Shown here: positions 11,322-36,791 of the stretch, one piece after another
Layout of the letters: each line of letters opens with the position of its first letter
How positions within the stretch are numbered: position 1 is the stretch's first letter
Origin: a virus
IMG/VR virus record: IMGVR_UViG_3300050821_002877
Coordinates: 1-51,571 of that record
DNA: 51,571 bases
Strand: one strand, 5' to 3'
Program-made: the position numbers and the translations under genes
Notes under the pieces: model-generated
The model's input: the letters and a program-made list of their open reading frames with translations, nothing else
What the model was told of the DNA's origin: nothing
The model's database searches: none

Positions 11322-11355
11322 AAATGAACATTACATATACAAAAAGGAGCCGATA

Positions 11356-11610: not shown

Positions 11611-11617
11611 TTCTTGT

Positions 11618-15541: not shown

Positions 15542-18500
15542 TTATGGCTCCATCGCAAATCCGACAAATTGTCCGAAACCATTCGCCGTGATAACTCCTA
15601 GTGTTGCTGGCATTACTCCTCCACTTAGAGGATTAGCCGCTGTCCCTACTCTTGTTCCGAATGGACCATTATACGGTAAATATGAACTACTTGGAATAGC
15701 ATAACCACCTTCACTAGAGGCTTGAGGACTTGTTCCATTATAGTCTCCAGATGTACACATCCAGTATATACCAGGCTGGATGTTAACTGTAGCAATCGTA
15801 TTACTTTTTGTGATTGGCACACCGGTAACTGCATCTATATTATCCCAACTCCATACCTTAGTACCAGCTCCAGTATACATTCCAATCGAAACATGTGACG
15901 CTGCCGGTCCAGCAGTGTTAAATCGGAAAGAGAGATTATTAATAGTCAAAGAGAAAGGTATTCTTGAGAGCAAGCACTTTAGTTGATTTGCAGTTCCAGT
16001 AGTAAAAACTCCTAATGTAGTACTCAAACTAAATGGTGTCCCATCTCCGGAAAGCCAGACAGAAGGTTGTACAGATAAGGCACCAGCATTACCTCCTCTT
16101 ACTAGAGCAAAATAATTAGTATTATCTGAATATATCCAAGCACATTGACCAGTAGTTAATGGCAGAGCACCAGTAATATATGATGCTCCTGTTGTATAAC
16201 TCATAGTACTAACTGTCGGTGTAATTGTAACTGTTCCTGCGCCAATATCACAGGCTAAAGTTACATAATTATTAGCAAAACCAGTCGTACTTGCTTGTGG
16301 TAAAGTTACTGTTACTGCTCCGGCATTATTAAATGTCACATATCCTGCTCGGTCAGAAGCTAGAAATGTATAACTTGCTCCAACTTGAGCATTTGGTACA
16401 ACTCCTGGAGGTGCCCATGCTGGTAAAGTAGCTAATCCGCCAGATGGCGTAGAAGTAAGTACTTGCGTTACTCCATTCACTCCAGTTGGTCCCGCTATTC
16501 TAGCTGCTGCTGGTACGGCATTCTCGATGATCATATCTCCTAATGTTGTCATCGGATTAGCAAATCCGCCCCCACCTGCGCCACATGGAGAGGCTATAGT
16601 AGTAAGTATTCCCGCTATTCCTGCCTGGACACAATTACCAGAAATTAAGGCTGAATCTGTAACATTATTAGCTGTTATATTACCGCGGACAGTAAATCCA
16701 CCATCAATAACTGGCCCACCAACTCCAGCGGCATCACCAGGATATCCATATTCAAAATCAGGATTAGTATTACCTGATGTATATCCTGTTATAATATTAT
16801 TAGTAATATTCGTACATCTTGTAGAAAAATTCCTGCCCCGATAATGAATACTACCTGTCGATCCTGCACCACTATGAGAAATATACACACAGTTATCTAC
16901 AATTGGCCCAACAGAGAACATTACTGTTCCTATCTCAAGTGCCCTTACATTCTTTAGATCAAAATAACTAACATTAGCCGTAGTACAAGCACCTCCGACT
17001 ACACAGCCTTCAATATAAATATTATTAAAATGAACTAGAGCTATAGAATGTACCACTGATCCAGTAACAAATGTTGTACCATTCCATGCAGCACTACCAT
17101 CTATATTAACATCACAACCTCCACCAGGACCAGCAGTACATGGATTAGATGAACCATCAATTGTACCAGTATCACCAATATTCGCACCAATAAATGTATA
17201 ATTACTCCCTGCTCCTGTACCAGCGCCACTTACAATATTAATGGGAATACAATTACTTCGGCCACTACAATTAGCAATTAAATTAATAAAGGTAACATCA
17301 TTATTATCTCCCGAGAATCCTGCCGGAGAATCTTCTAGTGATACATCCGCCGTATTAGCAATACCTTGAATTTGAACACCTGTAAAAAGTCCTTTTCCTT
17401 CTACTGATACAACATCTAATATTCCACGAGTAATTACAGCAGTATCACTCGCATTCATGGAATGACCACTAAAAAACATCTGTGATTGTAGACCATCATA
17501 CTCTGCACTAGAAACAAGAGAAGTATAAGCAGTAGTAGCACTTCCATGTATTGTACAACCTGATGTTGGACTAGCAGCTTTCCCAGGAACAGAGCACCAT
17601 AGATTTCCCCATTGTGCAATAGATATACAGGGATATCCACCTGTATTTTGTGTACATGTTAATGATACTCCACGATTCTCTACTGATACTGATTGTGTTC
17701 CGCTTCCAATAGTTACTGGAGCATCAAAATTTACTCCAGATAGAGTTCCTATAGATGTAGTAAGTGTTAATGTTGTTGCTGATTGTACAGATTGTACAGT
17801 TGCCACAGCACCGGCAATATTTATTGTATTTGCTGTCCAATTAGTAAATGTCATTCCAGAAATCCATGTTACACAATGGGCAGAACATCCATTAATAGGC
17901 CCATCCTGAACATTCACAGTTCCACTATGAGAGCCAGTAGCAACAACCATAGGATTTATTGCTGGATCAAGATCAATAACACATGGAGTACCTGCCGCTC
18001 CTGGGCCATTACCTTGTGGTGGAGGACATTGATTTAACATAGATTGAAGTGTCGGATTAACAAATCCTGCCGAATGATATTCAGAAGGAATTGATTGATA
18101 TCCAATAGCACCATTATTATTTACAATTACAGTCCCCTGAAGTCCTGTTGGAAGACCTCCGCCACCTCCAGTGCCGATAGCTTGCCAATTTAATGGACAT
18201 GGCGCAGTTACACATCCAAATAAAGTATTTGATATTGTATTCCAATATAATGATCCCTGACCACCAAGAGCTTCATTATTATTGTATGCCCTATAAATAG
18301 TCGGCAGGGTATTTACCACTGGCGTGTTAAGAACACTACTTAGTGATGCCGTAAGACTCATACTCGCGCCAGTAATAATTAATGTCGTTTGGCTACAATT
18401 TGTTATTGTAGCATTTGGACAAATAGTAAATTTCCACTTACTTCCGGCAGGAGTAAGAACATTATTATCATCCAGAGATATAGATAAATTTCCAGAGATA

Positions 18501-18733
18501 TCAGTCATAATGGTATTTATTGGACTAGCAATAGGAACACCATTATTCAGTAATGGACTTGGATTCCCAAATGGAGAAACAATATTAACAGTAATTATGG
18601 CATTTGACCAAACTTGTCCAGATCCATCAGTCAATGATGCTGTAACTGCTGTACATGTCCCAATACACTGTCCAAAAGATATCCCTACGCTGATAATCAT
18701 GAAAAAACTACAGGCTAGAAACCTTTGCATCAT
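15542..18733 (-). CDS. Large exported tail fibre/spike protein
   Basis: This is about 1,060 aa with a Sec signal peptide (MMQRFLACSFFMIISVGISFG, then Q), a carbohydrate/Ig-like N-terminal region (SLTDGSGQVWSNAIITVNIVSP), long Gly/Thr/Asn-rich beta-structured stretches typical of parallel beta-helix spikes (about 230-680), and a C-terminal adhesin-like part (YTFLASDRAGYVTF...). GGAGAG lies just before this ATG-ATG pair; an earlier in-frame ATG has none. It ends the late unit. A signal peptide on a virion-type fibre is unusual. Confidence 0.8.
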   Translation of the reverse strand: MMQRFLACSFFMIISVGISFGQCIGTCTAVTASLTDGSGQVWSNAIITVNIVSPFGNPSPLLNNGVPIASPINTIMTDISGNLSISLDDNNVLTPAGSKWKFTICPNATITNCSQTTLIITGASMSLTASLSSVLNTPVVNTLPTIYRAYNNNEALGGQGSLYWNTISNTLFGCVTAPCPLNWQAIGTGGGGGLPTGLQGTVIVNNNGAIGYQSIPSEYHSAGFVNPTLQSMLNQCPPPQGNGPGAAGTPCVIDLDPAINPMVVATGSHSGTVNVQDGPINGCSAHCVTWISGMTFTNWTANTINIAGAVATVQSVQSATTLTLTTSIGTLSGVNFDAPVTIGSGTQSVSVENRGVSLTCTQNTGGYPCISIAQWGNLWCSVPGKAASPTSGCTIHGSATTAYTSLVSSAEYDGLQSQMFFSGHSMNASDTAVITRGILDVVSVEGKGLFTGVQIQGIANTADVSLEDSPAGFSGDNNDVTFINLIANCSGRSNCIPINIVSGAGTGAGSNYTFIGANIGDTGTIDGSSNPCTAGPGGGCDVNIDGSAAWNGTTFVTGSVVHSIALVHFNNIYIEGCVVGGACTTANVSYFDLKNVRALEIGTVMFSVGPIVDNCVYISHSGAGSTGSIHYRGRNFSTRCTNITNNIITGYTSGNTNPDFEYGYPGDAAGVGGPVIDGGFTVRGNITANNVTDSALISGNCVQAGIAGILTTIASPCGAGGGGFANPMTTLGDMIIENAVPAAARIAGPTGVNGVTQVLTSTPSGGLATLPAWAPPGVVPNAQVGASYTFLASDRAGYVTFNNAGAVTVTLPQASTTGFANNYVTLACDIGAGTVTITPTVSTMSYTTGASYITGALPLTTGQCAWIYSDNTNYFALVRGGNAGALSVQPSVWLSGDGTPFSLSTTLGVFTTGTANQLKCLLSRIPFSLTINNLSFRFNTAGPAASHVSIGMYTGAGTKVWSWDNIDAVTGVPITKSNTIATVNIQPGIYWMCTSGDYNGTSPQASSEGGYAIPSSSYLPYNGPFGTRVGTAANPLSGGVMPATLGVITANGFGQFVGFAMEP

Positions 18734-19085
18734 ACTCTCTCCAGTCAACATTCAATTCCTTTGCCATTTTTCGTTCCATCTTCGTTGCAAAGGCATGTTC
18801 TTTATTATATGGCGCTGATGGTGAATCGCCAGGTTCACTGAAGTCATTCTCCATACGATTGGCTTCATATTCGATATCAAAGTTATCTACAACCTTCTGA
18901 TCAATATTCCTATCCTTGCATAACATTACTTCTATTAGTTCATGAAAAGCCACAAGGAATTCATACTTCCAATTATTCATATTAGAAATACGAATAGAAA
19001 TATTATCTTCATTAATAAATGTCCAATCTCCAACAGTAGGATATCTTTGTTCGGAATGCGGAATTGTTTCAATAATAATTTTCAT
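18708..19085 (-). CDS. Conserved phage protein with HELIE motif, 125 aa
   Basis: The recognisable block is YPTVGDWTF...WKYEFLVAFHELIEVMLC...EPGDSPSAPYNKEHAFAT. The HELIE segment and the later H-x-x-A-T helix recall inactive or divergent zincin-like folds; a catalytic HExxH is absent. It starts in a TAATG overlap with the gene upstream and overlaps the fibre gene downstream, so it belongs to a coupled cassette. Function unknown. Confidence 0.75.
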   Translation of the reverse strand: MKIIIETIPHSEQRYPTVGDWTFINEDNISIRISNMNNWKYEFLVAFHELIEVMLCKDRNIDQKVVDNFDIEYEANRMENDFSEPGDSPSAPYNKEHAFATKMERKMAKELNVDWREYDAKVSSL

Positions 19086-19540
19086 TATGGATAATATCCC
19101 TTTACTGCTTCATATGTCCGAAAAGTTGTTGCTCCGGCGACTAATGGAACAGCCATACATCTACAAATATACTTTTCAAGTACAAAATGAAAGCCTGTAA
19201 CTGCGACAGTAGAGACATAGGCATCTAGATATAATTCAAAATGTTTAGGAACTGGAGTTAGTTGTTTTTCATTTCGCGTAGTTTGTACTAATGCAAATGT
19301 TGAACCCCAATTTCCTAATTCAAGTAATAGAAATTCCTTACTTCTAAGTATCTCACGATTAGTCCTTAATGGTTTCGGAGCATCCCATCTTCCCATTGTC
19401 CAATAACCAGGAGGAGCAATAATAGTTTTAAGTAGATTCCTATGTTTTATAGAAACTGGCTGTGGAGTATCTGGGAGATCCTGCGATAAAACTGATATAG
19501 ATGATAATATTAAAAAAGAAATAATCGTTATGATTTTCAT
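19085..19540 (-). CDS. Exported small protein with LPDTP motif, 151 aa
   Basis: It has a Sec signal peptide (MKIITIISFLILSSISVLS, then QDLPDTPQP). The mature part contains a hydrophobic segment (VSTVAVTGFHFVLEKYI) and a Cys pair (CRC). As I recall, similar QxLPDAP starts occur in exported acidobacterial proteins; this is a host hint, not proof. TAATG overlaps link it to both neighbours. It may be a periplasmic or envelope-modifying factor. Confidence 0.7.
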   Translation of the reverse strand: MKIITIISFLILSSISVLSQDLPDTPQPVSIKHRNLLKTIIAPPGYWTMGRWDAPKPLRTNREILRSKEFLLLELGNWGSTFALVQTTRNEKQLTPVPKHFELYLDAYVSTVAVTGFHFVLEKYICRCMAVPLVAGATTFRTYEAVKGYYP

Positions 19541-20430
19541 TATTTACTTATCAACCTCACGCCACCAAGCATAGCGAGAATATGTTCGATATTTGTCCCC
19601 TCATCATAATCATCCCATGTCGGGATACATATATATGGAATTGTCGGAGGAATTACTCCAAGTTGATCAAAGAACCAATTTCCACCTTGACTATCAATTA
19701 CTCGCGTTGGTCCATTACCAGGCCAGACAGATAATGAATAATCTCGTAAACCTTTAAAATCTTTTGCTGATATATTCGCAGGAATTGGCTGCCCACCATC
19801 ATTGAAACATGGATTGGCAGAACACATCTTCATTGTGGACTTAGCACTATCAGATTTTAATATCGCAAGAGAGTCTACTGGATTCGCAGAGTTATTTGAA
19901 ACATTTGGCCACGTATATCCAGAATGCCAAGAAATAATCGGAGTTGTTGGACAGGCCAATTGTACATTAACTATATTCACACCAGCAGAATTCGCTAGAT
20001 CAAATTCACAGATATATCGTTCTGGGAGATATATAGGAGAATCAAATATTCGCTGATAATCTACTGATTGTAGTGAATCAATCACTGCCTGTGTCGGATT
20101 TGGCTGTTGCTTTGCGATCCAAGGATCTAAAAGAAGGCAAAATAACATTTGTCTTTCTAGACAAGCTTCCCATAATTTTATTGTCGCATCATGAAGAAAT
20201 GGATTTACAGTTACTCCTTGTACAGTCAGACGCCAACCATCAAATCCCGCAGCTTGTGCTAGATCACATTGATTTGCAATCACGGATGGATCATTAGATA
20301 GATATCTACTCTGCCGATGGACTTGTGTTCCATTCTTCTCACCGGACCAAGAAATTTTATCAACTAATACTTTCCCATTCCATCCAGGGATATTTTTCTG
20401 AATAGATTTCTTAATATTAAGTTCTATCAT
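19540..20430 (-). CDS. TIM-barrel glycoside-hydrolase-like protein
   Basis: The C-terminal IPTWDDYDEGTNIEH resembles the WNDYGEGT motif of GH71/GH99-type and related (beta/alpha)8 hydrolases. Earlier strands (GFDGWRLTVQG, LFCLLLDPW, PIISWHSGY) fit a TIM barrel. It is 296 aa with no signal peptide. It may be a lysin or polysaccharide depolymerase, or may process a product of the adjacent ATP-grasp enzyme, whose stop it overlaps (ATGA). The assignment is motif-level only. Confidence 0.6.
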   Translation of the reverse strand: MIELNIKKSIQKNIPGWNGKVLVDKISWSGEKNGTQVHRQSRYLSNDPSVIANQCDLAQAAGFDGWRLTVQGVTVNPFLHDATIKLWEACLERQMLFCLLLDPWIAKQQPNPTQAVIDSLQSVDYQRIFDSPIYLPERYICEFDLANSAGVNIVNVQLACPTTPIISWHSGYTWPNVSNNSANPVDSLAILKSDSAKSTMKMCSANPCFNDGGQPIPANISAKDFKGLRDYSLSVWPGNGPTRVIDSQGGNWFFDQLGVIPPTIPYICIPTWDDYDEGTNIEHILAMLGGVRLISK

Positions 20431-21698
20431 TTAAGCCATCCTTGAGAGTCGAGAATCTTATATCTTTCCGTTGTTAATTTCTCAATATCAGTCCTATACT
20501 GCATACTAGGGATATGAATCTTCTTTATTTTCTCATTAACTTTTCCAAATGCTTCATATATACTTCCTCCGTTACACAATGGTACGCATACCAGACCATT
20601 AGTGCCACAGGTGACAAAATGATCATTATCATCACAACAACAATCATAGAGAAAGCAATTTTTAATAATATCATCTTCTTCCAATCCCTCTATGGGAATA
20701 TCTTCCGGATGTTTATTCCTTATTTCCGACGGATATGGAGGAATGCTAATACGAATACCAGCAGCATAAGTATTAAGGATATTAATAGTGGGATTTCCAC
20801 CCACACTAATCTCGCCGATGAAGTCACCAAGATTATCAATACAAGTATACAAAGTAGCACTAGCATCGTATCCAAAGCGTGGTGTCCATTCAAGGCCATA
20901 CAATTTTCCATCAGTTACAATAGTATTTAAGTCCACCATTCCATAAAAATTATATTCTTGAAGAAAATCTTTTAATTTCCCAAGACCTTCTCTAAAAATA
21001 TAGGGCTTGTTCTGTTGATCATATATCCAAACAAGATTCCCACTACATCCAGTATTCGGCCCCTTGCCATCATTCATAAACTTCTTCTCTTCAAGAGTTC
21101 CATTAATCAAGAAGAAGTCTTCCCCATTAAACCATCCTTCCGTTGATACTTCCGTCCCTTGAACAACTTCCTGTAAAACGAATTCTGTTCCGTGGGATGT
21201 ACTATCAAGTTTATCGAGATACAACAACATATCTTCCGCTGATTTTGAGACATAAGTACTTGCAGTATCCTGAGACTGTCCACCATTCGGTTTGAACACA
21301 AATATTTTATTAGTTTTCTTGATAAATCGTCTGGCAGCTCCAAGGTCATCAAAGGTTTCATAGAATGGGACATTAATATCACACTTTTCCATTACTTCTA
21401 TCCCGAAGGTACGGTCATCTTCGAGTTCGCTATGAAGATCACCATCGCCAATAGTAGGTGCATAAGTACTCGCCTCTTCTGCAAGTTTTGGCTTTCCTGT
21501 TAAATCAAAAAGTATTAAATCATATAATGCAAAATTTGGCCTAGCCCTTAGCGGCAGTTTTATTATGCCGCTAAGGACTATGCTATAATCATCATAGTGA
21601 GCACAGAGCCATATATCTACAGAATGACCTTCTTCTTCTAATTGAAGAGAGAACCATGATCCGAACATACTATATGTCACTATGAGGATTTTTGCCAT
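20427..21698 (-). CDS. PurD-like ATP-grasp ligase
   Basis: The order of motifs follows glycinamide ribonucleotide synthetase: N-terminal ILIVTYSMFGSWFSLQLEEEGH, DGDLHSELEDDRTFGIEVMEK, ATP-grasp FVFKPNGG and FVLQEVVQGTEVSTEGWF, then GMVDLNTIV and GLEWTPRFGYDAS in place of PurD LEFNVRFGDPE. The catalytic Asn and Glu of that last motif are replaced, so the substrate may differ from phosphoribosylamine. ATP-grasp enzymes join a carboxylate to an amine or thiol. It sits in the late unit with a glycosidase-like gene. Confidence 0.8.
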   Translation of the reverse strand: MAKILIVTYSMFGSWFSLQLEEEGHSVDIWLCAHYDDYSIVLSGIIKLPLRARPNFALYDLILFDLTGKPKLAEEASTYAPTIGDGDLHSELEDDRTFGIEVMEKCDINVPFYETFDDLGAARRFIKKTNKIFVFKPNGGQSQDTASTYVSKSAEDMLLYLDKLDSTSHGTEFVLQEVVQGTEVSTEGWFNGEDFFLINGTLEEKKFMNDGKGPNTGCSGNLVWIYDQQNKPYIFREGLGKLKDFLQEYNFYGMVDLNTIVTDGKLYGLEWTPRFGYDASATLYTCIDNLGDFIGEISVGGNPTINILNTYAAGIRISIPPYPSEIRNKHPEDIPIEGLEEDDIIKNCFLYDCCCDDNDHFVTCGTNGLVCVPLCNGGSIYEAFGKVNEKIKKIHIPSMQYRTDIEKLTTERYKILDSQGWLK

Positions 21699-21713
21699 TA
21701 CTTTTATCTAATT

Positions 21714-21911
21714 TTACAAAGGCCGCTTACTTACAACATCCGATCCTTCAGGTGAAGGTTCTACATCTTTAGTATAGGTTGTTTTTACAGTACTTGTACT
21801 AGTACCACCAATACCTTTCGGACCTTCATTATCTCCACGGCCCTTGTTATGTGAAATAGCCTTAATATCTGCCTTAGCCTCATCTGTCGTGTGAACGTGA
21901 GGAGCGACCAT
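21714..21911 (-). CDS. Small Gly/Thr-rich hypothetical protein, 65 aa
   Basis: It is low complexity and probably disordered (GPKGIGGTSTSTVKTTYTKD). An AGGAG-type site precedes the ATG. It lies between the internal-virion-type genes and the ATP-grasp cassette. Function unknown. Confidence 0.55.
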   Translation of the reverse strand: MVAPHVHTTDEAKADIKAISHNKGRGDNEGPKGIGGTSTSTVKTTYTKDVEPSPEGSDVVSKRPL

Positions 21912-21931
21912 TATTTTTCTCCTTTTCTATA

Positions 21932-23302
21932 TTATTGAACAATTAATTGCATAGCATGTCTAAGATACCATGCCTTCGTTAATCCAAGAATACTTAAAAC
22001 TCCAGTACTTAATATAGCTGCCTTTCCTAAACGCTGCTGCTGTGCGAGTTTATTTACTTCTTGTAAAATTGGATAATACCGACTCCCAAGTAAATCCTTT
22101 GCCATATCACCCTTTTGTACTAAATCTTTTTGTACATCAACCCAATTAGTTTTCTTCCCCATAGCTAAAGATTTTCCAGTAAATTTTTCAATTATAGCCC
22201 TTATTATAGTATCTTGTAAATTTTTTATAGCCTTAGGATGCTCTTCCAATTGTTTAATAACATCCCGAGCAAGACTTTGATTTTCCTTTCCACCTTTAGC
22301 TAACTTCATTATCAACTGTTCAGGTGAACTCGCTCCAGCTATTTTAGATCCAAACTTCGTAACTGCTGCATGAAGTTCTTGTGCTTCTTTTAATTTCTCA
22401 GCAGCTTCTTTGTATGTTGCTATAAGTTTAGGATCTGCTTTTCCTTTTGCCTTTATAATTAATTCAACATATTCAAGTTCATCTTTAGCATCTGATAATT
22501 TTGCTACACTATGGGAAATATTATCCTTAACAATCTTCTGAACCATCTCTCCCATCTTAAGTTCCCTAGGTGCTGTTGATACTGGAAGAATTGCAGATTT
22601 AGGATTTAATAATTGTTTAACTCCCTTAACAATCTTACTTCCACCTTCAGCAACACCTTCTACTGTTTTAGATGCCCCTTTAGCAGTTAACTCTGCTTCT
22701 TCAGGAGCCATAAAGGATAAAGGAATTTCTGATGCTTGTGATACACCACTTATAACTTTTCCTGTTCCCTGTAATTTTTTACCTTGTCCAATATCTCCAA
22801 AACCTTCTAATGCTTTTAATATTCCTTCAGGCATAGATAAGACAAAATCTGCCACCTTGGGATTTACTCCAGCGTAGAATGGTTGGCCACCAAGTTTTTT
22901 ATATATTTGTCCAGCTTTAGTCTGCCCTGTACCAAATCTTAAATCAGCGCCAAGAGCCTCTGCATATCTAGAAATAAATGCTGATATATTTCCAGGCTTT
23001 AAACTCATTTCATCAGGATTAGAAACTGAACTAATCTGTCCTATACTATCCTTTTGAGCCTGTCGTTGACTTAATTCTTGTCTATATTTATCAGGAGCAA
23101 ACTTAGCATTCCATAAGTCATGCTTTACTTCTTTAGGTAAATTAAGTTTATCAAAGTAAGATTTAAATTCTTCTGGTGTTTTTGATCCATGATATGCCTC
23201 CCATGTTGTATGCTTAATAGATTTATCCACCTGTATAGGATCAAGTATAGTCTTGATATCTATTTGTGAATTATCTATACTAGTAGGGATTTGCTGGGGC
23301 AT
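21932..23302 (-). CDS. Putative internal virion/ejection protein, 456 aa
   Basis: It is helical, Lys/Ala-rich, with a glycine-rich central stretch (GFGDIGQGKKLQGTGKVISG) and long helices. It overlaps the 549-aa gene upstream by 23 bases. Three such large helical or Gly-rich genes next to the neck/tail genes are typical of podovirus ejection proteins. No specific family is recognised. Confidence 0.55.
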   Translation of the reverse strand: MPQQIPTSIDNSQIDIKTILDPIQVDKSIKHTTWEAYHGSKTPEEFKSYFDKLNLPKEVKHDLWNAKFAPDKYRQELSQRQAQKDSIGQISSVSNPDEMSLKPGNISAFISRYAEALGADLRFGTGQTKAGQIYKKLGGQPFYAGVNPKVADFVLSMPEGILKALEGFGDIGQGKKLQGTGKVISGVSQASEIPLSFMAPEEAELTAKGASKTVEGVAEGGSKIVKGVKQLLNPKSAILPVSTAPRELKMGEMVQKIVKDNISHSVAKLSDAKDELEYVELIIKAKGKADPKLIATYKEAAEKLKEAQELHAAVTKFGSKIAGASSPEQLIMKLAKGGKENQSLARDVIKQLEEHPKAIKNLQDTIIRAIIEKFTGKSLAMGKKTNWVDVQKDLVQKGDMAKDLLGSRYYPILQEVNKLAQQQRLGKAAILSTGVLSILGLTKAWYLRHAMQLIVQ

Positions 23303-24929: not shown

Positions 24930-24954
24930 AATATCTCCCTTATTACTTTAATTA

Positions 24955-26726: not shown

Positions 26727-26727
26727 G

Positions 26728-27126: not shown

Positions 27127-27143
27127 TTATAACTCCTAAAAAT

Positions 27144-27512
27144 CTAATGAATCCAAAGTCTAATTTTCACATTTGCAGTAGTACTTTTAAGAAAAATCTG
27201 TGTCTTTGTCCAAGCAGTACCACTATCATAAATAATAGTAGCATCGCTCATATATTTCACATCATAAAAGAGTGGTACTCTTCCTAGATTATGTGTTACT
27301 GCAAATAATATATTCGCTGCCCCAGTATTTGCAATCTCAGCAGATACTCCTTCAATGTTTTGATCTGCATTTGGATCAACTTGAGTATTATTATGATATT
27401 GTACTGCGCGACCGAAACTTATACCTCTATTAGAAAGCTTATACAGATCCTCTATGAATCTTTTATGATTCATATCCTGTATAGCTGAAGTTTCTGGTCT
27501 AATAATTTTCAT
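27144..27512 (-). CDS. Small beta-rich tail protein, 122 aa
   Basis: The first 35 residues are helical (IQDMNHKRFIEDLYKLSNRG), the rest beta-rich with VTHNLGRVPLFYDVKY, a motif frequently seen in phage tail/fibre small proteins. It is separated from its neighbours by a few bases only. Function inferred from context. Confidence 0.6.
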   Translation of the reverse strand: MKIIRPETSAIQDMNHKRFIEDLYKLSNRGISFGRAVQYHNNTQVDPNADQNIEGVSAEIANTGAANILFAVTHNLGRVPLFYDVKYMSDATIIYDSGTAWTKTQIFLKSTTANVKIRLWIH

Positions 27513-27515
27513 AAT

Positions 27516-28118: not shown

Positions 28119-28127
28119 ATACAATAA

Positions 28128-29471
28128 TTATCCTGTGAAACAATATCTTGTATGTCCAGTATATGTTGTATTCGATTTAAACTCTGCTTGCCATGAATCA
28201 TCCTCTATAGCATAATTCCATATCTTTGTCCCATTATTCTGAGGGATAGCGAGTCTATAATGATTATAAATATAATTTAATTGGTAATATGGAATAATTG
28301 TCCCTATTGGATTTCCAATAGCAAGATTGATATCATTGTATATAGCATCTCTTGCTGCACCGCCAATACGCTTAAAGCCTCCAAGAGAAACATTATAGAT
28401 ATCATCACTGGATATAAATATACCTAATGGCCCATATGCAGAATATCCAAATGGTAATATATTCCCTATCCCACGATCACTGGCCCAGAGATGATTAAAA
28501 TTAAATGGATTTATCCCCACACCAGTACTAGTTACTTCTGTTATTCCATTCTGTCTCAATATGAATGCCGTTGTTCCGACAGTTAAGGCGCCAAATATAC
28601 TATCCGCAACATCGAGTTCATCATTAAATCCTGCTCCGATATTAACATTCGGATCCCATATAGTCGGGAGTCCTGATGGTGTCCATCGAATACGTTGTGG
28701 GAAATTACCACCACTAGATTCTACAGTATTCAACATCAATAACTGTGCATTCAATTCTATCAGAAAATATGCCCCCGCCGTTACTCCATTCGTAGCATCC
28801 ACCATCCCGACCGCGCTAAATCCATTAGAAGCCGCTGGTTTTCCTCCCATTGTCCATATTATAGGAGTTGTACCAGGATCAGATGTTGTACCAGACAAAG
28901 TGATATTCCATATAGGAATAGTTCCCCCACTAATCCCAGCATTTCCTGCAATTTCTACATTTCCATTACCATCGAGTATTTGTGCCCCTTGTTTATAGGC
29001 AGTATTCTTCCGCCATATAGAAGGAGCACCAACAGAAGTAATTCCATCCCATGACCAGATATTTGTCCCACCATTCGTCCAGAATAATTTATTTACAAAT
29101 ACTTGTACTGCCGCGGGATTTATCGGTCCTGGTTGTATTGGAAATGATCCAATAAGACTCCATACTTTGTCTGGCTTAGACTTATTCTTTAACCACTGAC
29201 TATTAAGTTGCCATAGACCAGTTGGCGTTACAGCACATGTATGATACACATTATTACTATCAATAAATGAAGTAATAAATAACATTGTTTTTCCATCAGG
29301 AGGACCAGGGATATATAATGATTGATTTGGCCGTGTACGGATTTCTCCATTCTTTAGAATAAAATTAACCATAAAAGGAGAAAAATCTGGAGTAAGTTGA
29401 TCCTCTGGAGTACTTACATTTACTCCTCTCCACGGTCCCTTATATTTTTGTTCAAAATAATTTTTAGACAT
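28128..29471 (-). CDS. Beta-propeller tail nozzle/stabilisation protein, 447 aa
   Basis: Repeated beta blades with W-x-W/NGG turns (KLFWTNGGTNIWSWDG, PQRIRWTPSGLPTIWDP, GFNDELDVADSIFGALTVGTTAFILRQNGITEVT) match the phage tail propeller found at the podovirus nozzle (P22 gp10/T7 gp12-like position). It overlaps the exported gene upstream by 8 bases. Likely a ring at the tail tip. Confidence 0.7.
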   Translation of the reverse strand: MSKNYFEQKYKGPWRGVNVSTPEDQLTPDFSPFMVNFILKNGEIRTRPNQSLYIPGPPDGKTMLFITSFIDSNNVYHTCAVTPTGLWQLNSQWLKNKSKPDKVWSLIGSFPIQPGPINPAAVQVFVNKLFWTNGGTNIWSWDGITSVGAPSIWRKNTAYKQGAQILDGNGNVEIAGNAGISGGTIPIWNITLSGTTSDPGTTPIIWTMGGKPAASNGFSAVGMVDATNGVTAGAYFLIELNAQLLMLNTVESSGGNFPQRIRWTPSGLPTIWDPNVNIGAGFNDELDVADSIFGALTVGTTAFILRQNGITEVTSTGVGINPFNFNHLWASDRGIGNILPFGYSAYGPLGIFISSDDIYNVSLGGFKRIGGAARDAIYNDINLAIGNPIGTIIPYYQLNYIYNHYRLAIPQNNGTKIWNYAIEDDSWQAEFKSNTTYTGHTRYCFTG

Positions 29472-30987
29472 AATATACTATTCTCGATAATAGTATTCTC
29501 GCAAACATCCCTATTGCTGGTGCTGGTGGTTGTTGCCAGTCTAGGGCGAGAATAAATGTATCACTTCGACAATTAGTTAATGCTGTACAACTACTCCCAC
29601 CAGAAGTAGATCCAAGAGTATTATTCATCGGAGATGTAAATAAGTACCATCTCCCATCTTGAGATATTGATCCTATCGCATTTTCACCATCAAATGATTG
29701 TGTTGGTAATGAATATGTATGCCCAAATCTAAGTATTATGCCAGACTTGGCTATATTTGTCGGTGGATATATCCCAAGTATTTCATTTACGTCACAAAAT
29801 GTATAACTTGGATTTGATGCTATTGTCGTACTTGTCCAGAAAAATGGCTCTTGATCACTGCCTTTATTATTATACCATCCCCCATGACCATCAAAAGGCG
29901 TAATAATACCAGAACATTGACTAGCTGGAACCGATGTTGGTGTTGTTAATGACGTAACTGGTCGCCCGGCCCAAAAACCATTATTATAATTATTAATTAA
30001 TTCTGTCACGCCAGAATCTATATGGTGTCCTCCACATTGCGTTAATGATGGCCCACACCATGCCCAGACATTAGTAGTCCCACGTTGCCATATATATGGA
30101 CTAGCACCATTATAACATGTCCCATCGCAAGTCTGGATAATAACTATAATATATTGTTCCCCAACTATACCTACATTATGTATACTAAATGTCCCCGGAT
30201 TAGTCGCTCCACCAGTACAATTTTGACAAACAACTGGTCCAGTAGTACCATAATCTCCTGTAATTACTCCAGTAGATGTATTATAGGCTGAACATCCTAC
30301 TCCAGGTGTATATGCCGCTATATATCGTCCTGTTCCTTGTGATGCACTAGTAGAGAATCCATTTGCAAATGTACCATCTGTAGACGATACTGCTGGTGGG
30401 TCAGTTGGATGAATAAATGTATTTGGTATACATGTGGCACTAAAATCATAAATAGTAACACCAGTTGGAGGAGAAGAACTTCCCATATTCCAAGTTTTTA
30501 ATACTGGTCCATCAGCAGATGATGCTGCACTAGCCATTGCATAAAATGGATCTTCAAAAACACGAGAAAAATTTCCACCATTCGTTAGATCAGTTATTCC
30601 AGAGATAGTACTATATTTTAATGTTGGAGTAATTGTATTTGCATTAAAATCATAGAAAAAATGTGCTCCGCCACTACTAGACAAGTAAAAGTGTTTTGAT
30701 GTCTTACTCCAATGATTCCTATCTCCAGAGCCACTAAAATCGGCTACCATACTTTGATTAGATCGAGTATTTGCATCTGTTACTCGTTCTATAGGAAGAT
30801 GAAAAGCTCCAGAATTATTCCCACCACTTACTGGCTCTGGATCAAATACTATTGTCCCTGATCCAGTCAAACCTGAAAATGGTGCTATCGCTGGAGGAGG
30901 GATAGTTGCAGTACTAGTACTAGCACCAAGATAAGATTGGGCATATGATGACGTTACTAAAACTAAAATGAATAATAATCGCTTCAT
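29464..30987 (-). CDS. Exported beta-propeller-like protein, 507 aa
   Basis: It has a Sec signal peptide MKRLLFILVLVTSSYA, then QSYLG. The mature part is beta-rich with repeats of FYLSSSGGAHFFYDFN-like strands and several close Cys pairs (CQNC, CDGTC, CGPSLTQC), consistent with folding and disulfide formation outside the cytoplasm. It lies in the tail-gene cluster. It may be a receptor-binding or secreted decoy protein. Confidence 0.7.
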   Translation of the reverse strand: MKRLLFILVLVTSSYAQSYLGASTSTATIPPPAIAPFSGLTGSGTIVFDPEPVSGGNNSGAFHLPIERVTDANTRSNQSMVADFSGSGDRNHWSKTSKHFYLSSSGGAHFFYDFNANTITPTLKYSTISGITDLTNGGNFSRVFEDPFYAMASAASSADGPVLKTWNMGSSSPPTGVTIYDFSATCIPNTFIHPTDPPAVSSTDGTFANGFSTSASQGTGRYIAAYTPGVGCSAYNTSTGVITGDYGTTGPVVCQNCTGGATNPGTFSIHNVGIVGEQYIIVIIQTCDGTCYNGASPYIWQRGTTNVWAWCGPSLTQCGGHHIDSGVTELINNYNNGFWAGRPVTSLTTPTSVPASQCSGIITPFDGHGGWYNNKGSDQEPFFWTSTTIASNPSYTFCDVNEILGIYPPTNIAKSGIILRFGHTYSLPTQSFDGENAIGSISQDGRWYLFTSPMNNTLGSTSGGSSCTALTNCRSDTFILALDWQQPPAPAIGMFARILLSRIVYYV

Positions 30988-30989
30988 AA

Positions 30990-33752
30990 TTATTGTAACT
31001 GTACGGTTGCCACATCCCGAAACGATGGCGCGTTGGCCACGATTGCCTGATAGCTGATCACGTTTGCTCCGGTGGATCGTACACCAAATATATCTATACC
31101 GGAGTTAGCTGCTGTACAAGCATGAGAAGGTCCAAGTTGATTAGTTGCTCCCAAGACAGGCTCAGAATAATTCACTTGAAATTGCAACGTAGAAGTAGCG
31201 ACCGCTGCACAATCCCAGATAATCTTCACCGTATACGCTAGAGGGTTGATGTTGGAGTTGAAGCTGGCCGGGACCAGCGTTGTAACGCCTAGCGAAGCAA
31301 TCGAGCCAATTTCGGCATCGCACCCTATAGTACTTTCGTACCACGTACAATTATTAGTTCCAGCCCCAACTGTAGAATCATTAATATTGGCAGTTTTGTT
31401 ACCAAATGATCCACTACCAATACCAAAGATATTACCAACTATTTTATTAGGCGGAATCTGATGTATAGCAAAATTAATCCCATATCGTTGAGTCTGAGTA
31501 CCCTGATTATCAAAGATATTATTAGCAGATATAATATTACTAAATGAATTAGTAGCCCCAGAAGATTGTAGAAATATACCATCATAAGTACCAGTAGATG
31601 ATTGACTATTATTGAAAATAGTATTCCCAGTAATAGATGCCTGTTCTGTCCCAGAAAATAAAATACCATACTGACCACACCATGTTAAATTATTTCCTGT
31701 AATATTCACATTACCCATAAGTGTTAATGATAAACATGGTCCAGTTCCAGCAGGACTAGTTGCAGGGCCAAAAACTGTATTTCCACTAATAGTTCCATTT
31801 ATTGGTACACAACAGTTTGTAGATGTAATAACAATACAACCAGCAATATTCCATCCACAGTTCTGAAAATTATTATGATGAATATTAAAGTTACCAAGTG
31901 ACATAGTATTATTTAAACCAACTAAACTAAACCCAATAGACGCACCATTGCTAGTATTATCATGAAAATCTACAGTTTGTACTCCCAAGGCTCCAGTCGC
32001 GTCAGAAAGAGTAAAGGCATTTAGAGTGGAAGTTACACTAGGGCCTTGTTCGATAATGGTATTATCATGGACCGTTAGATAACTAGACCCTCCAGCCGCC
32101 GTTACGTGATTAATAGCATAACCAAAAAACCCTTCATTCACTTGTGAGGAATCCGCAGGATCGGATATATAGTTATCTCCTACGGTAATTTGTCCTGTAT
32201 CCTCAAAAAAAACATCATGACAAGGATTTGGTCCAAGTAAAGTACAAATCATATTAAGAAAATGTCCACCAGTAACTTCCACATTAACATTTGGACTAGT
32301 CTGGCCACTTGCTCCACGATAATCAATACATGCATCTGTTACTCCTGAACAATATATAAAAGCATGTCGCATATTACTAGCAGTAGCTCCCGCACTAGAT
32401 GATGCATGAAGAACATCTCTACCCGCTGTAATCTGAAGATCACGATCAAATCCCTGTCCACAATGTTCACAATCAACAACAGCCTGAAACGCATCTGTTG
32501 CGCTGGCTGAAATCGCATGTACATTATCTAGATGTAGATTCCACATTTCTTGATTCGCTGTGCCATTACGCAAAATTAGAGAAGAAGCTAAAAAAGTTGT
32601 ACAAGATGCTGTACAAGGATCACCCAAAATATAGCTTCGAGTAAAACGTCCTTGTCCAAAGATACAGGTATTTGCAGCCCATGTTAGTTGCGTGTTCATC
32701 ATGTAAAACGATTTCTGCGCCTGCGGGACATAAACACAACCCTGAATTGCTGATGCTGCCGTCATCGCCGCTGCAATCGCCGTCGAGTCATCAGTTGCCC
32801 AATATAAGGTTGCAAAGTATCCGGCTCCTGCTGTGCCAACAGTAAGAGCACTTACAACGCCACCACTAACAGCACAATTTAATGCTCCTCCTGATCCAGT
32901 CTGGGATTGTTGCATTAATATTTTCACTGTACAACTCGCTGCACTAGCCGTACCATTAGCTACAATAACTCCACCAGTAATAGCACCTGCTGAACTAACT
33001 GTAGCATATCCATAAGGAACAGTAGTACATCCTACACATATAATATTAATTGGAAGAGTTAAAGCTGGTGATCCTCCAAGAGTAATACTCGACGAAGATG
33101 TAAATCCTGCAACTGTGGTTACTAAGTTTACGCCCACATTACATCCAACACAGATAACTGATTTCCCAACATCACCAGCTACAAATAATGCAGAAGCAGA
33201 GGTAACTGTAGTAGTACCATTTGTCACCACATCACGTACTACTTGACCATTACCTAAAGCTCCTTTTGTTTGTATATCAATCCATCCAGCAACATTATGA
33301 CATACCCCATCACCACCAAGATACTGAGCACCAGTACACGAGGCACCACCACCTGTACATGTACTATTAACACAACCTTGTCCAACAAAATTAAGATATC
33401 CACCACCAGTTCCAATAATATAAGATACTCTTACATATGCTGGAGAAGAATTAGATCCAGCAATAATACTTCCACTACTAGTACAAGTTTGAGCAGAAAT
33501 TAACTGCCCTGCAATAGTACTTCCATCAGTACTATAATCTACTTGAATTGTACATGTAGCAAGACTTCCATTAATTGTCCATGAAAGACTTGCATACGTC
33601 GGAGTAATTCCACCAACACTAACAAATCCCGTATTTCCAGTAATACTTGCACCACCTACTGGCTGGAGAATACGATATAGATATACTTGCTGTGCATATA
33701 ATATAACCGTAAGAGATAAAATAAATAATAGTATGAATATTCTTTTCTTCAT
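30990..33752 (-). CDS. Exported tailspike: SLSW beta-domain plus pectate-lyase-like helix, 920 aa
   Basis: It has a signal peptide MKKRIFILLFILSLTVILYA before QQ. Residues about 40-130 are a beta-sandwich with CTIQVDYSTDGST and YVRVSYI, shared with another exported protein at 36.0-36.8 kb. After GDGVCHNVAGWIDIQTKGALGNG (about 150) comes a pectate-lyase-3-type parallel beta-helix with many N-rich turns. The C-terminal region (SLGVTTLVPASF...) may trimerise it. It probably degrades or binds host surface polysaccharide. Confidence 0.75.
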   Translation of the reverse strand: MKKRIFILLFILSLTVILYAQQVYLYRILQPVGGASITGNTGFVSVGGITPTYASLSWTINGSLATCTIQVDYSTDGSTIAGQLISAQTCTSSGSIIAGSNSSPAYVRVSYIIGTGGGYLNFVGQGCVNSTCTGGGASCTGAQYLGGDGVCHNVAGWIDIQTKGALGNGQVVRDVVTNGTTTVTSASALFVAGDVGKSVICVGCNVGVNLVTTVAGFTSSSSITLGGSPALTLPINIICVGCTTVPYGYATVSSAGAITGGVIVANGTASAASCTVKILMQQSQTGSGGALNCAVSGGVVSALTVGTAGAGYFATLYWATDDSTAIAAAMTAASAIQGCVYVPQAQKSFYMMNTQLTWAANTCIFGQGRFTRSYILGDPCTASCTTFLASSLILRNGTANQEMWNLHLDNVHAISASATDAFQAVVDCEHCGQGFDRDLQITAGRDVLHASSSAGATASNMRHAFIYCSGVTDACIDYRGASGQTSPNVNVEVTGGHFLNMICTLLGPNPCHDVFFEDTGQITVGDNYISDPADSSQVNEGFFGYAINHVTAAGGSSYLTVHDNTIIEQGPSVTSTLNAFTLSDATGALGVQTVDFHDNTSNGASIGFSLVGLNNTMSLGNFNIHHNNFQNCGWNIAGCIVITSTNCCVPINGTISGNTVFGPATSPAGTGPCLSLTLMGNVNITGNNLTWCGQYGILFSGTEQASITGNTIFNNSQSSTGTYDGIFLQSSGATNSFSNIISANNIFDNQGTQTQRYGINFAIHQIPPNKIVGNIFGIGSGSFGNKTANINDSTVGAGTNNCTWYESTIGCDAEIGSIASLGVTTLVPASFNSNINPLAYTVKIIWDCAAVATSTLQFQVNYSEPVLGATNQLGPSHACTAANSGIDIFGVRSTGANVISYQAIVANAPSFRDVATVQLQ

Positions 33753-33761
33753 TTTATCTCC

Positions 33762-34049
33762 TTATGGTTTGTGATATATCCGAAGTGTTCCATTAGTTAT
33801 CCCATGAATAGGCACAGCAAGCCCATCAGAATGACCAACGGCACCAGTTCTAACAGTTTCTAAATCTGCCGCCGCAGAGAGATATGTAAAAAGTTTACCA
33901 TTAGACTGATTTAATGTAGCATTATCAGTATTGACAGTATATTGTGTAAACTCCACATTAAGTATGAGTAATTTTCCAACCCATACTACTACTGGACCTG
34001 CTGCTACATCGGCAGCATTTACAATAATAGGATTACTGGTAACATCCAT
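33762..34049 (-). CDS. Small beta-rich structural protein, 95 aa
   Basis: The sequence is strand-rich (VVVWVGKLLILNVEFTQYTVN). It lies between an exported spike and the 220-aa beta-rich gene, with only short spacers. Function unknown. Confidence 0.55.
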   Translation of the reverse strand: MDVTSNPIIVNAADVAAGPVVVWVGKLLILNVEFTQYTVNTDNATLNQSNGKLFTYLSAAADLETVRTGAVGHSDGLAVPIHGITNGTLRIYHKP

Positions 34050-34057
34050 AGGTCACC

Positions 34058-34720
34058 TTAATTATAATTGAATGTGATTAATAGTGAAAGACTATATAGT
34101 CTAAATGTACACCCACCAGGCGTTACTGGATTTAGACGAATGAACATCTGTGTATTATCATTTGTATCAAAGAATGGCGCCGCGATAGGAACAGTCGTTA
34201 CATTACATGTAGTAGCATTTGCAGTATTCGCAAGAACAAGTCCATTCTGTCCACTAGCAACCATAGATGTAATAACGTTAACCGTTGCCTGTTCAAAAGT
34301 ATTTATATCCGCTCTTACTACAAAACTCGTAAGCGGCCCACCCTGAACAGAATAAGCCAGTTCAAATCCAGTTATCTTAGATCCCTTTAATATTGGAGCA
34401 TCTCCAGAATCATCTGCAAGTAATCCTGAAGCATTCAATGCTGGAACACTTGTAGTACTAAGAAGATCATTTGATTGTTTAAAATATTCTGATGCACACA
34501 TTCCAATAACAGCATTCTGTGATGCAGCGACATTAATACTAACATCACCAGGAGCATTCTCTGTTAAGACTGCATTTGTTAAAATATAACTATTATTCAT
34601 CGGAACAGACAAACAACCAATCGTAATATTCCCATCCATCACAACCGGAGAAGTAGGATCAATTATTGTCTGTCCAGCGGCATTAATTGTATGTTGTCCC
34701 TGAAATCTAATTGGAGGCAT
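34058..34720 (-). CDS. Beta-rich structural protein, 220 aa
   Basis: Continuous beta-strand pattern with Ala/Thr/Asn turns and a hydrophobic end (LYSLSLLITFNYN). An AAGGAG-like site precedes the ATG. It is likely a minor tail or decoration protein; no family recognised. Confidence 0.55.
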   Translation of the reverse strand: MPPIRFQGQHTINAAGQTIIDPTSPVVMDGNITIGCLSVPMNNSYILTNAVLTENAPGDVSINVAASQNAVIGMCASEYFKQSNDLLSTTSVPALNASGLLADDSGDAPILKGSKITGFELAYSVQGGPLTSFVVRADINTFEQATVNVITSMVASGQNGLVLANTANATTCNVTTVPIAAPFFDTNDNTQMFIRLNPVTPGGCTFRLYSLSLLITFNYN

Positions 34721-34732
34721 CTTATAATCTCC

Positions 34733-35011
34733 TTAATATATTAAGCCATCATCAAGACTTGCATTAATTTCTTCTGTATCAGTTAATTTAGGATCAGGTT
34801 CCATTTCCGTTGAAGGATTGTCAAATACTGCTATTATTGCTGCTTCTCTTTGGCCAATTAATGGAAAACCATCATTTCCATAATCTATACAATCTGGACA
34901 AAGTAATAAACCACGTTGCCAAGACATTTCACTAATATGAGTTTTATTTACACATCTTGCACAAAAGTGCCACGGGCCAACTAGTTTACTTCTTTTTCCT
35001 TTGAATGCCAT
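34733..35011 (-). CDS. Zinc-ribbon structural-locus protein, 92 aa
   Basis: CARC and CPDC, about 19 residues apart, form a zinc ribbon of the type often found near phage head-tail genes (HFCARC...GLLLCPDC). The C-terminus is acidic. The ribosome site is weak; GGAG lies 26 bases upstream inside the pseudoknot-like leader. Confidence 0.65.
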   Translation of the reverse strand: MAFKGKRSKLVGPWHFCARCVNKTHISEMSWQRGLLLCPDCIDYGNDGFPLIGQREAAIIAVFDNPSTEMEPDPKLTDTEEINASLDDGLIY

Positions 35012-35036
35012 AATATATTATGATCTTTAAAGAAAT

Positions 35037-35105
35037 GGCTCCTATTCGGTTTATTATAATATAAACAGGATGAGTTAAAGGAGCCAAAGGAAAACCTCAT
35101 CCTGT
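35037..35105 (-). promoter_or_regulatory. Pseudoknot-like leader and possible terminator
   Basis: On the minus transcript ACAGGATGAG and CTCATCCTGT (35105-35096/35074-35065) form a 10-bp stem followed by a T/A-rich run with TATAAT. GGCTCC in its loop (35085-35080) can pair with GGAGCC downstream (35042-35037), an H-type pseudoknot that would hide a GGAG. It may partly terminate transcription or control the zinc-ribbon gene. Confidence 0.5.
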
Positions 35106-35142
35106 CCCCTTGCCTGCCCGTTACAAGCAAAGGAACTTGTTG

Positions 35143-35709
35143 TTATTTCTTAACTGGAGATGCACCCGGAACAGCAGCAGACCAGGAAATATTCATAGTC
35201 GTTGGTTGTCCAGTAGTTCCAGCAGTCACAGTAAGAACGCCTTGTGCAGATAGCGTTGTTGCACTATCACTAACCGCAACTCCAGTTGCTCCTGCTTTCA
35301 ATGGAGTAAATGTTGCCGATCCATCTGCATTTTGTACAAAACTTGCTACAGTAGGATCTTGCACAGCCCAAGCAATCTTAGTTGGATCATATGCAAACTT
35401 GGTTGTTCCATCTGCAAGCAATTCTACAGGAGTTCCAAGATTATTTCCAAAAGGCGCTACTAGATTCAGTGTTACATCATTTACTGCCATAATATTAGTT
35501 TCTCCCTGATTTAACTGATTTGATTGTGTTATAGTTGATAATGTCCAATTTATGAACATCATTACAGGCGGATTCTTCTCACTTTCTTCTATCTCCTCTT
35601 CTTTATGCATTTTTCGGAAGAGTCTCAATAAGTCTTCATGTACATGAACTAATCTTCTCAGATCATCATGTATACTTTCAATTATCTTAAAATCTTTATG
35701 ATCTAACAT
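35143..35709 (-). CDS. Helical head plus Ig-like (Big2) domain protein, 188 aa
   Basis: Residues 1-45 form a charged helix, and a linker follows. From M74 onward an Ig-like Big2 domain (VTLNLVAPFGNNLGTPVELLADGTT...VQDPTVASFVQ...FTPLKAGATGVAV) runs to the end. A strong AGGGAG precedes the in-frame ATG at 35490, so a 115-aa Ig-only product may also be made. The ribosome site of the long form sits in a hairpin. Ig-like domains often decorate capsids or tails. Confidence 0.7.
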   Translation of the reverse strand: MLDHKDFKIIESIHDDLRRLVHVHEDLLRLFRKMHKEEEIEESEKNPPVMMFINWTLSTITQSNQLNQGETNIMAVNDVTLNLVAPFGNNLGTPVELLADGTTKFAYDPTKIAWAVQDPTVASFVQNADGSATFTPLKAGATGVAVSDSATTLSAQGVLTVTAGTTGQPTTMNISWSAAVPGASPVKK

Positions 35710-35710
35710 A

Positions 35711-35731
35711 AATAGGCTCCTTTAGCCTATT
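35711..35731 (-). promoter_or_regulatory. Hairpin holding the Shine-Dalgarno of the Ig-like gene
   Basis: AATAGGCT-AAAGG-AGCCTATT forms an 8-bp stem just before the ATG, with AAAGGAG spanning loop and 3' arm. It overlaps the stop codon of the upstream gene, so translation of that gene would open it. Confidence 0.6.
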
Positions 35732-36029
35732 ACTTAAATGCTGGTTTCCATTCAGGACTTCTTTGTACATCAACCTTCTTATCAAATGGACTCCACTTCT
35801 CACCTCTTACAGGACTAACTCTCGTATCACTTCCAGGTGCAGTTGATTGACTAGAATAATGTGGTTCTTTCCCATGATGAACTAGATGATTATCAAACTG
35901 ACTTTTCGCTGCCGCTTCTGTTCCCATCCTAGTCTGAAAACCACACTTACATTCAACATAATGCCGATATTGCTCATAACTATTCGGCTGATATTCATAC
36001 ATAACAAGCCCATGTTCAATCAAAGCCAT
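35730..36029 (-). CDS. C2H2-like zinc-finger protein, 99 aa
   Basis: ECKCGFQTRMGTEAAAKSQFDNHLVHHG gives two Cys and spaced His ligands of a C2H2-like finger. The C-terminus is basic and disordered-looking. An AAAGGAG-type site precedes the ATG. Function unknown. Confidence 0.65.
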   Translation of the reverse strand: MALIEHGLVMYEYQPNSYEQYRHYVECKCGFQTRMGTEAAAKSQFDNHLVHHGKEPHYSSQSTAPGSDTRVSPVRGEKWSPFDKKVDVQRSPEWKPAFK

Positions 36030-36038
36030 AAGTCTCCT

Positions 36039-36791
36039 TTATGTCCCCCAACAAACATAATTGAAGGTATCCGAACTAGAGTTACCATCTGTGATAGTAA
36101 AAGAAGATGAACTCACATAGGTAATCTTAAAGATTGCATTAGCTGCTGTTGTAGCATCACTAGCGGCACAGAAATAAGATGTTCCACTAGTAAATGCAGG
36201 AGCAATAGATGCTACAGTACATGTAGTTGCCGCGGAAGCAGTACATGAGCCATAGATAACGCGAAAGTTAGTAGTGAAGACTGAAGTACAGGTGGTAGTA
36301 GTACCGCAGTTAATTGCAGAGGACAATATATTCTGTGGAGTATTTCCAATTTGTCCAAAATAATTAAATGCCAGAGAACCACTACCAGTAGTAGTCAGAG
36401 CAGTAATATTCACACGAACATATGCTGCTGATAGTGTAGCAGTATATGTCCCAGAGGATGTACAAGTCTGAGCAGTACCAAGTGCAGTATACGTACCAGT
36501 TAAAGTAGTAGACTGCTCTAACTGTATTGTACAGACAGAAACAGTCGCCACTGCTGTCCAGGATAGTGTCATTGATGTAACAAGACTATTCTGGAACATA
36601 GAACCTTGTCCACCACAAGGACTAATACCAACACTAGTAGCTACTCCAGTTGCAGCAGTACATGCTACTAGTGCTGATACTGGACCAAGACTCTGAACAT
36701 ATTGAGTTTGTTGGGCCTGTGTCGTGACTGAACATAAGGCACAAATTATCCCGGCGACCAGAAATGTTAATGATTTCTTAAGAAATTTCAT
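36039..36791 (-). CDS. Exported SLSW-domain protein, 250 aa
   Basis: It has a signal peptide MKFLKKSLTFLVAGIICALCSVTTQA, then QQTQY. Residues about 70-150 match the beta-domain of the 920-aa spike (MTLSWT...CTIQLEQSTTLTGTY...AQTCTSSGTY...YVRVNITAL). A second beta-region (about 160-250) carries paired Cys. It lies directly downstream of the capsid gene in transcription order, an odd place for an exported protein. Confidence 0.7.
   Translation of the reverse strand: MKFLKKSLTFLVAGIICALCSVTTQAQQTQYVQSLGPVSALVACTAATGVATSVGISPCGGQGSMFQNSLVTSMTLSWTAVATVSVCTIQLEQSTTLTGTYTALGTAQTCTSSGTYTATLSAAYVRVNITALTTTGSGSLAFNYFGQIGNTPQNILSSAINCGTTTTCTSVFTTNFRVIYGSCTASAATTCTVASIAPAFTSGTSYFCAASDATTAANAIFKITYVSSSSFTITDGNSSSDTFNYVCWGT

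Follow-up and report, generated by a model that had tools for sequence, protein, structure and literature searches.

Tailed phages, in the textbook account, are assembled wholly in the reducing cytoplasm of their host. P22 tailspikes have a constant N-terminal attachment domain and an exchangeable C-terminal part, and are the last component to be added. Sec-exported virion proteins are found in the filamentous phages, where pIII and pVIII reach the particle through Sec with a cleaved signal peptide and pIII has disulfides. Glutamine (Gln) directly after the signal-peptide cleavage site, known as the Q-rule, has been described as specific to Bacteroidetes (PMC5837995, PMC10653852), and phages of Porphyromonas gingivalis carry five Q-rule genes of unknown function, discussed as host-surface modifiers (PMC10367356). 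Here we analyse IMG/VR record IMGVR_UViG_3300050821_002877, a viral contig of 51,571 bases (the window), in which five late proteins, named here by the first base of their genes (18733, 19540, 30987, 33752 and 36791), begin with predicted signal peptides that end before Gln. Their export is nearly certain. Our best reading, for which the balance of the evidence tips modestly, is a system of exported, disulfide-bonded receptor-binding spikes that would join virions at or after lysis.

The likeness to the P. gingivalis phages lies in phage signal peptides that obey the Gln rule of the host. The window proteins differ in being fibre- or spike-like, located in the structural region, rich in cysteines (Cys) in even numbers, conserved in their lineage and probably outside the Bacteroidota. 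As Sec-exported virion proteins, the proposed spikes would resemble pIII and pVIII; filamentous phages, however, assemble while crossing the membrane without lysis, whereas tailed phages assemble in the cytoplasm. With P22-type tailspikes they would share a constant N-terminal attachment domain, an exchangeable C-terminal part and addition as the last step, but those tailspikes have neither signal peptide nor disulfides, and the cytoplasm is where they are synthesized and fold.

Predicted signal peptides of the late proteins

The window belongs to a podovirus-like phage with its late genes on the minus strand (Table 1) and a gene for a family-A DNA polymerase (PF00476). Signal peptides were called by a rule set (positive n-region, hydropathy of the h-region, −3/−1 rule) that does not reward Gln at +1 and that scored 10 of 10 Escherichia coli test signal peptides as positive. 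The five proteins scored 5.1 to 8.7, and among about 60 window genes a score of at least 5 was reached only by these five and by 43271. All five have n-, h- and c-regions with small residues at −3 and −1, and in each the residue directly after the best-scoring cleavage site is Gln: MMQRFLACSFFMIISVGISFG-QCIG (18733), MKIITIISFLILSSISVLS-QDLP (19540), MKRLLFILVLVTSSYA-QSYL (30987), MKKRIFILLFILSLTVILYA-QQVY (33752) and MKFLKKSLTFLVAGIICALCSVTTQA-QQTQ (36791). With a Gln background of ~4% in these proteins, the probability of this arising by chance is ~1e-7. The first gene has two usable starts, at 18751 (AAAGGAATTGA-ATG) and at 18733 (TGGAGAGAGT-ATG), each with a plausible ribosome-binding site.

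A sequence-only reading of the window had placed five signal-peptide proteins at these starts, each cleavable before Gln, and all five minus-strand open reading frames (ORFs) and N-termini match, with five of five called. As that reader worked by eye, chance or selection of hydrophobic N-termini has to be considered. This is extremely improbable: in a six-frame scan, 6 of 125 ATG ORFs of at least 60 residues pass, five of them being named genes or 43271 (18733 was missed because the longest ORF there begins at 18751), Gln occurs in five of five cases against its ~4% background, and conservation in relatives (below) refutes the idea. The same reading had treated the five as a late-locus set and compared them with virion fibres. 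The span also holds at least 15 genes without signal peptide, and not all five proteins are fibre-like: 19540 is a protein of 151 residues for which no relatives were detected in the plasmids or viral contigs searched.

The 18733 protein has an N-terminal immunoglobulin (Ig)-like domain, termed B, containing a W.F[TN].C[PS]...C Cys pair and followed by a variable C-terminal part. The 33752 protein contains a conserved domain, termed A (residues ~21–135, Cys67/Cys90), and an unconserved C-terminal part. The gene for the 36791 protein lies directly downstream of the major capsid gene. Structure matches of domain A were weak and only jelly-roll-like or carbohydrate-binding-like (best Z 6.3), and are not used as evidence. 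An acidobacterial 'LPDAP' motif following the signal peptide was tested and was not supported. ARAGORN places a tRNA-Gln (ctg) at 30459–30550 on the minus strand, inside the 30987 coding region, which is probably a false positive. The 43271 lipoprotein, whose gene is located in the terminase–portal interval, is a sixth exported protein of the window and had been missed by the earlier reader.

Conservation in related viral contigs

Relatives were collected using the capsid protein, giving 42 viral contigs, of which 37 belong to the same lineage (at least 52% capsid identity) and the other five show ~25% identity. The slot that holds the spike-like genes is syntenic and is flanked by the 34049 gene and the phrog_3287 tail gene. 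In this slot a protein directly follows 34049 in about 20 records, the window among them, and there the first protein in line begins with a signal peptide; a subset of relatives has a 36791-type gene behind the capsid gene. Across 25 aligned N-termini of domain-A proteins and their neighbours, Gln is the only invariant column at the cleavage site, and the Cys pair CT[IV] ... [TS]CTS[SN]G recurs in most of them. The domain-B family, 18733 included, was found at 23 viral-contig loci, with a signal peptide and Gln in 23 of 23; further members all have a signal peptide, a few with another +1 residue. One or two domain-B proteins are encoded in each of seven lineage contigs of 44–52 kb, among them the window.

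The signal part of the 36791 relatives is 25–40% identical and the mature part 63–78%. Genuine signal peptides typically diverge faster in this way, as it is their properties that are retained. Thus, a signal peptide with Gln recurs at the same gene positions in this soil-phage lineage while the signal sequences diverge. In both the domain-A and the domain-B families, the N-terminus is conserved and the C-termini are unrelated, which is the usual design of spikes and fibres. Two relatives, L026 and L029, have no signal-peptide protein in the slot; two genes upstream they encode a fibre-like protein that is Cys-poor and not exported, a pattern that suggests substitution of an exported by a non-exported fibre. 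The two kinds do not strictly exclude each other, as small proteins of the non-exported, Cys-poor kind stand beside exported ones in L007.

Smaller exported proteins are also encoded in the lineage. The terminase–portal interval of relatives contains signal-peptide proteins of 163–190 residues (Table 1), without Cys where counted and four of them ending in Phe. They look like small outer-membrane β-barrels, with a possible role in superinfection exclusion or lysis. Near the end of the late operon, small exported FN3-like single-domain proteins with 2–4 Cys occur at L006:17577–17954, at L034:14099–14440 and on the minus strand of L205 (120 residues). An ATP-grasp protein (GARS_A, E 2e-10) is encoded within the late operon of the window (20427–21698, minus strand), and several relatives keep it beside a 19085-type gene.

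A comparable cluster is present in cultured phages. Tunturi_1 (PP887698), an isolated podophage of Tunturiibacter (Acidobacteriota), and Tunturi_2 (PP885685), both from PMC11924767, share with the window a cluster of fibre genes with signal peptides, Gln and even Cys in a podophage of an acidobacterial host. In Tunturi_1, ORF12, 13, 14, 16 and 17 all have a signal peptide, four of them with Gln, and are located between the head genes and later structural genes; they contain 20, 10, 20, 1 and 32 Cys, respectively, and ORF14 is annotated as 'tail spike' and ORF17 as 'virion structural'. No relative of 24 window families, head, tail or spike, was detected when the first 50 kb of Tunturi_1 were searched with profiles. 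The main text of PMC11924767 mentions neither signal peptides nor mass spectrometry. Viral contigs of up to 231 kb contain relatives of ORF17, and the fibre genes of these large contigs likewise have signal peptides and, in 15 of 15 complete cases, even Cys. In the cultured-phage collection, the only matches were distant ones to the terminase, with none to the portal, the 33752 protein or domain B. The tail protein phrog_3287 of the window has a relative in Tunturi_3 (E 1e-16).

Even cysteine numbers

The mature forms of the five proteins contain 28, 2, 12, 32 and 10 Cys, in the order 18733, 19540, 30987, 33752 and 36791. The earlier remark that several of them have Cys pairs was therefore an understatement, as the count is even in every mature form. 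Among complete lineage proteins with a signal peptide, 37 have an even and one an odd number of Cys, the odd one being the lipoprotein; non-exported proteins of the same loci divide into 73 even and 90 odd. Pooled with further phages, exported proteins give 71 even and 3 odd, compared with 73:90 (Fisher 4e-16). Since relatedness inflates such counts, one protein was taken per independent C-terminal cluster and its whole mature form counted, giving 21 of 21 even (5e-7). C-terminal parts cut at residue 190 gave 14:6, which is not significant; this arbitrary cut separates Cys partners, and whole mature proteins were used for that reason.

Exported bacterial proteins prefer even Cys numbers because of disulfides, as PMC7678975 states, citing Dutton et al. 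2008. Together with this preference, the even counts make it most probable that the five proteins fold in an oxidizing compartment. They also bear on the idea that the N-terminal hydrophobic stretch does not serve export, being instead a particle anchor or the remnant of a host secreted protein. A home-made rule set called the signal peptides, and a hydrophobic helix could in principle pack inside the tail; however, an anchor needs neither the −3/−1 rule nor an invariant Gln and would not yield the 71:3 bias, and a remnant would not persist in several phage groups and in front of spike C-termini that are unrelated to one another. We regard both forms of this explanation as very unlikely.

Host and the glutamine rule

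A Shine–Dalgarno match of at least 4 bases precedes 38 of 51 gene starts, compared with 13% of random sites, and the Bacteroidota promoter (TTTG/TAnnTTTG) showed no enrichment in the window. This argues against a Bacteroidota host. To place the Gln preference, we surveyed predicted signal peptides encoded on plasmids of two Acidobacteriota, Granulicella tundricola (NC_015057, NC_015065 and NC_015058) and Acidisarcina polymorpha (NZ_CP030841 and NZ_CP030842). At the best site, the +1 residue was Gln in 33 of 73 on the Granulicella and 5 of 11 on the Acidisarcina plasmids, compared with 9 of 13 in the positive control Runella (Bacteroidota) and with 1 of 11 in E. coli, 3 of 18 in Sinorhizobium and 1 of 6 in Gemmatirosa. 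The pooled counts of this plasmid survey, in which the controls are small (Gemmatirosa gave just six signal peptides), are 38 of 84 for the two Acidobacteriota and 5 of 35 for the controls (p 0.0009); for a Gln site within a few residues they are 62 of 84 and 8 of 35 (p 3e-7). The Gln preference of the Q-rule is thus seen in the two Acidobacteriota surveyed, outside Bacteroidetes, and the rule would be extended accordingly.

The likeness to the Bacteroidetes Q-rule is that signal peptidase I cleavage exposes a +1 Gln, with the same enrichment in Runella; the differences are the Shine–Dalgarno starts of the window phage and a Gln preference that is also found in Granulicella and Acidisarcina. 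The sequence-only reading had connected Gln at +1 with the rule of Bacteroidota, allowing for other Gram-negative groups. It was right, and the remark can now be sharpened, as Shine–Dalgarno use speaks against Bacteroidota and the two Acidobacteriota surveyed prefer Gln too.

The host of the window phage is plausibly acidobacterial. The genome collection, scanned for host prophages with alignments of the capsid protein and of domain B, yielded no relatives, which leaves the host inferred. The GC content of 37–40% weighs against an acidobacterial host, being low for cultured Acidobacteriota. Glutaminyl cyclase (PF05096) was found on none of the six plasmids searched, Bacteroidota control included, which is uninformative.

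Role of the exported proteins

In the mechanism that we propose, the five proteins would be synthesized late as Sec pre-proteins, cross the inner membrane and be cleaved there by the signal peptidase I of the host, leaving an N-terminal Gln that would then probably be capped as pyroglutamate. Folding with disulfide bonds would take place in the periplasm. The 18733, 30987 and 33752 proteins would be receptor-binding tail spikes or fibres, and the probable role of 36791 is that of a related appendage on capsid or tail; 19540, and perhaps 36791 as well, may differ in job from the three large proteins. Capsids and tails would be built in the cytoplasm while oxidized spikes wait in the periplasm. 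Assembly would end with their docking, by way of the conserved N-terminal domain (A or B), once lysis brings the two compartments together. In vitro, completed heads can still take up P22 tailspikes, which makes addition of spikes as the last step plausible.

The sequence-only reading had left open whether these proteins are effectors or decoys, or spikes that join particles later. The exported genes lie among head and tail genes, with the spike slot in the tail and structural region, and 18733, 30987 and 33752 all have a signal peptide, leaving no obvious other receptor-binding protein in the window. Gene position, the constant-N/variable-C design and the lack of another spike candidate favour spikes, and presence of the exported proteins in the virion is, on these grounds, somewhat probable.

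The main rival is that the exported proteins do not become part of the virion and instead work at the cell surface or beyond it, as exopolysaccharide depolymerases that free progeny, as receptor-masking superinfection blockers or as decoys. The same export, Gln and Cys evidence fits this explanation; some relatives have weak matches to pectate-lyase-like or sugar-enzyme-associated domains (PF12708 in L037, PF13290 in L035), the small exported and β-barrel-like proteins of the lineage suggest a wider remodelling of the envelope, and the Q-rule proteins of P. gingivalis phages have unknown functions (PMC10367356). It fits poorly with genes placed between head and tail genes and with a constant-N/variable-C spike architecture, and it would leave most of these phages without a recognizable receptor-binding protein. 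We consider it a genuine possibility, if a doubtful one.

Several points count against exported spikes. We know of no tailed phage that takes exported spikes into its virion, and the open-access literature searched contained no report of exported tail fibres, a negative that shows little. AlphaFold gave mean predicted local distance difference test (pLDDT) scores of 53 for 36791 and 39 for 33752, with no secure spike fold or trimer, and small or single-domain exported proteins (19540 and the FN3-like ones) suit a spike role poorly. The labels of the Tunturi genes are automatic annotations. Fibres lack a signal peptide in two other acidobacterial phages, Tunturi_3 and Tunturi_4, and in crAss001 and B40-8, which infect Bacteroides; the design is therefore not universal in hosts with the Gln rule. 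Finally, even and odd Cys numbers are equally common (21:21) among the Gln-type exported proteins of Granulicella itself, so that the bias belongs to these phage proteins and not to every exported protein of such a host.

Other features of the window

Two further observations were made outside the exported set. At 10203–13129 on the plus strand, the polymerase seems to be split, with a 372-residue ORF without Pfam match, a separate PF00476 ORF and a small overlapping ORF between them. At 39459–40241 on the minus strand, a 260-residue protein containing about a dozen consecutive Asn occupies a scaffold-like position before the capsid gene.

Table 1. Features of the window and of related viral contigs discussed in the text.
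Feature	Sequence	Position	Strand	Remarks
Spike/fibre-like exported protein, 1063 residues	Window	15542..18733	-	Signal peptide SFG-Q; 28 Cys in mature form; alternative start 18751
Small exported protein, 151 residues	Window	19085..19540	-	Signal peptide VLS-Q; 2 Cys (CRC)
Tail/structural protein phrog_3287	Window	28128..29471	-	One flank of the spike slot; without signal peptide
Exported protein, 507 residues	Window	29464..30987	-	Signal peptide SYA-Q; 12 Cys in mature form; gene immediately precedes that of the tail protein
Spike/fibre-like exported protein, 920 residues	Window	30990..33752	-	Signal peptide LYA-Q; 32 Cys
Conserved 95-residue protein (MDVTSNP...AADVAAGPV)	Window	33762..34049	-	Other flank of the spike slot
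Two-domain β exported protein, 250 residues	Window	36039..36791	-	Signal peptide TQA-Q; domain A and C-terminal domain; 10 Cys
Major capsid protein	Window	36843..37796	-	Weak PF10124 (E 2.6e-4); phrog_371; reference gene for collecting relatives
Tat-type lipoprotein, 197 residues	Window	42678..43271	-	TRRQF ... LGLS-C lipobox
Terminase large subunit	Window	44158..46038	-	phrog_38 (E 3e-47)
Small signal-peptide protein, terminase–portal interval	L014	4306-4830		
Small signal-peptide protein, terminase–portal interval	L022	3136-3660		
Small signal-peptide protein, terminase–portal interval	L036	188-733		
Small signal-peptide protein, terminase–portal interval	L044	2106-2597		
Small signal-peptide protein, terminase–portal interval	L040	5060-5632		

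Implications

Taken broadly, soil tailed phages may include a widespread class whose assembly is split across the inner membrane, with spikes that are exported, cut before Gln, oxidized and attached at or after lysis, and whose members exploit a Gln rule that is also acidobacterial; we hold the chances of this general statement to be evenly balanced. If true, exported and oxidized spikes would add an extracytoplasmic step to the assembly of tailed phages, and work on adsorption, lysis timing and particle maturation in soil phages would have to be approached differently. If Acidobacteriota follow a Gln rule, a feature described as confined to Bacteroidetes would extend to one of the most common phyla of soil, and the sequence itself would give a clue to the hosts of viral contigs that are still unassigned. 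Tunturi_1 on Tunturiibacter offers a cultured system in which the main question can be tested.

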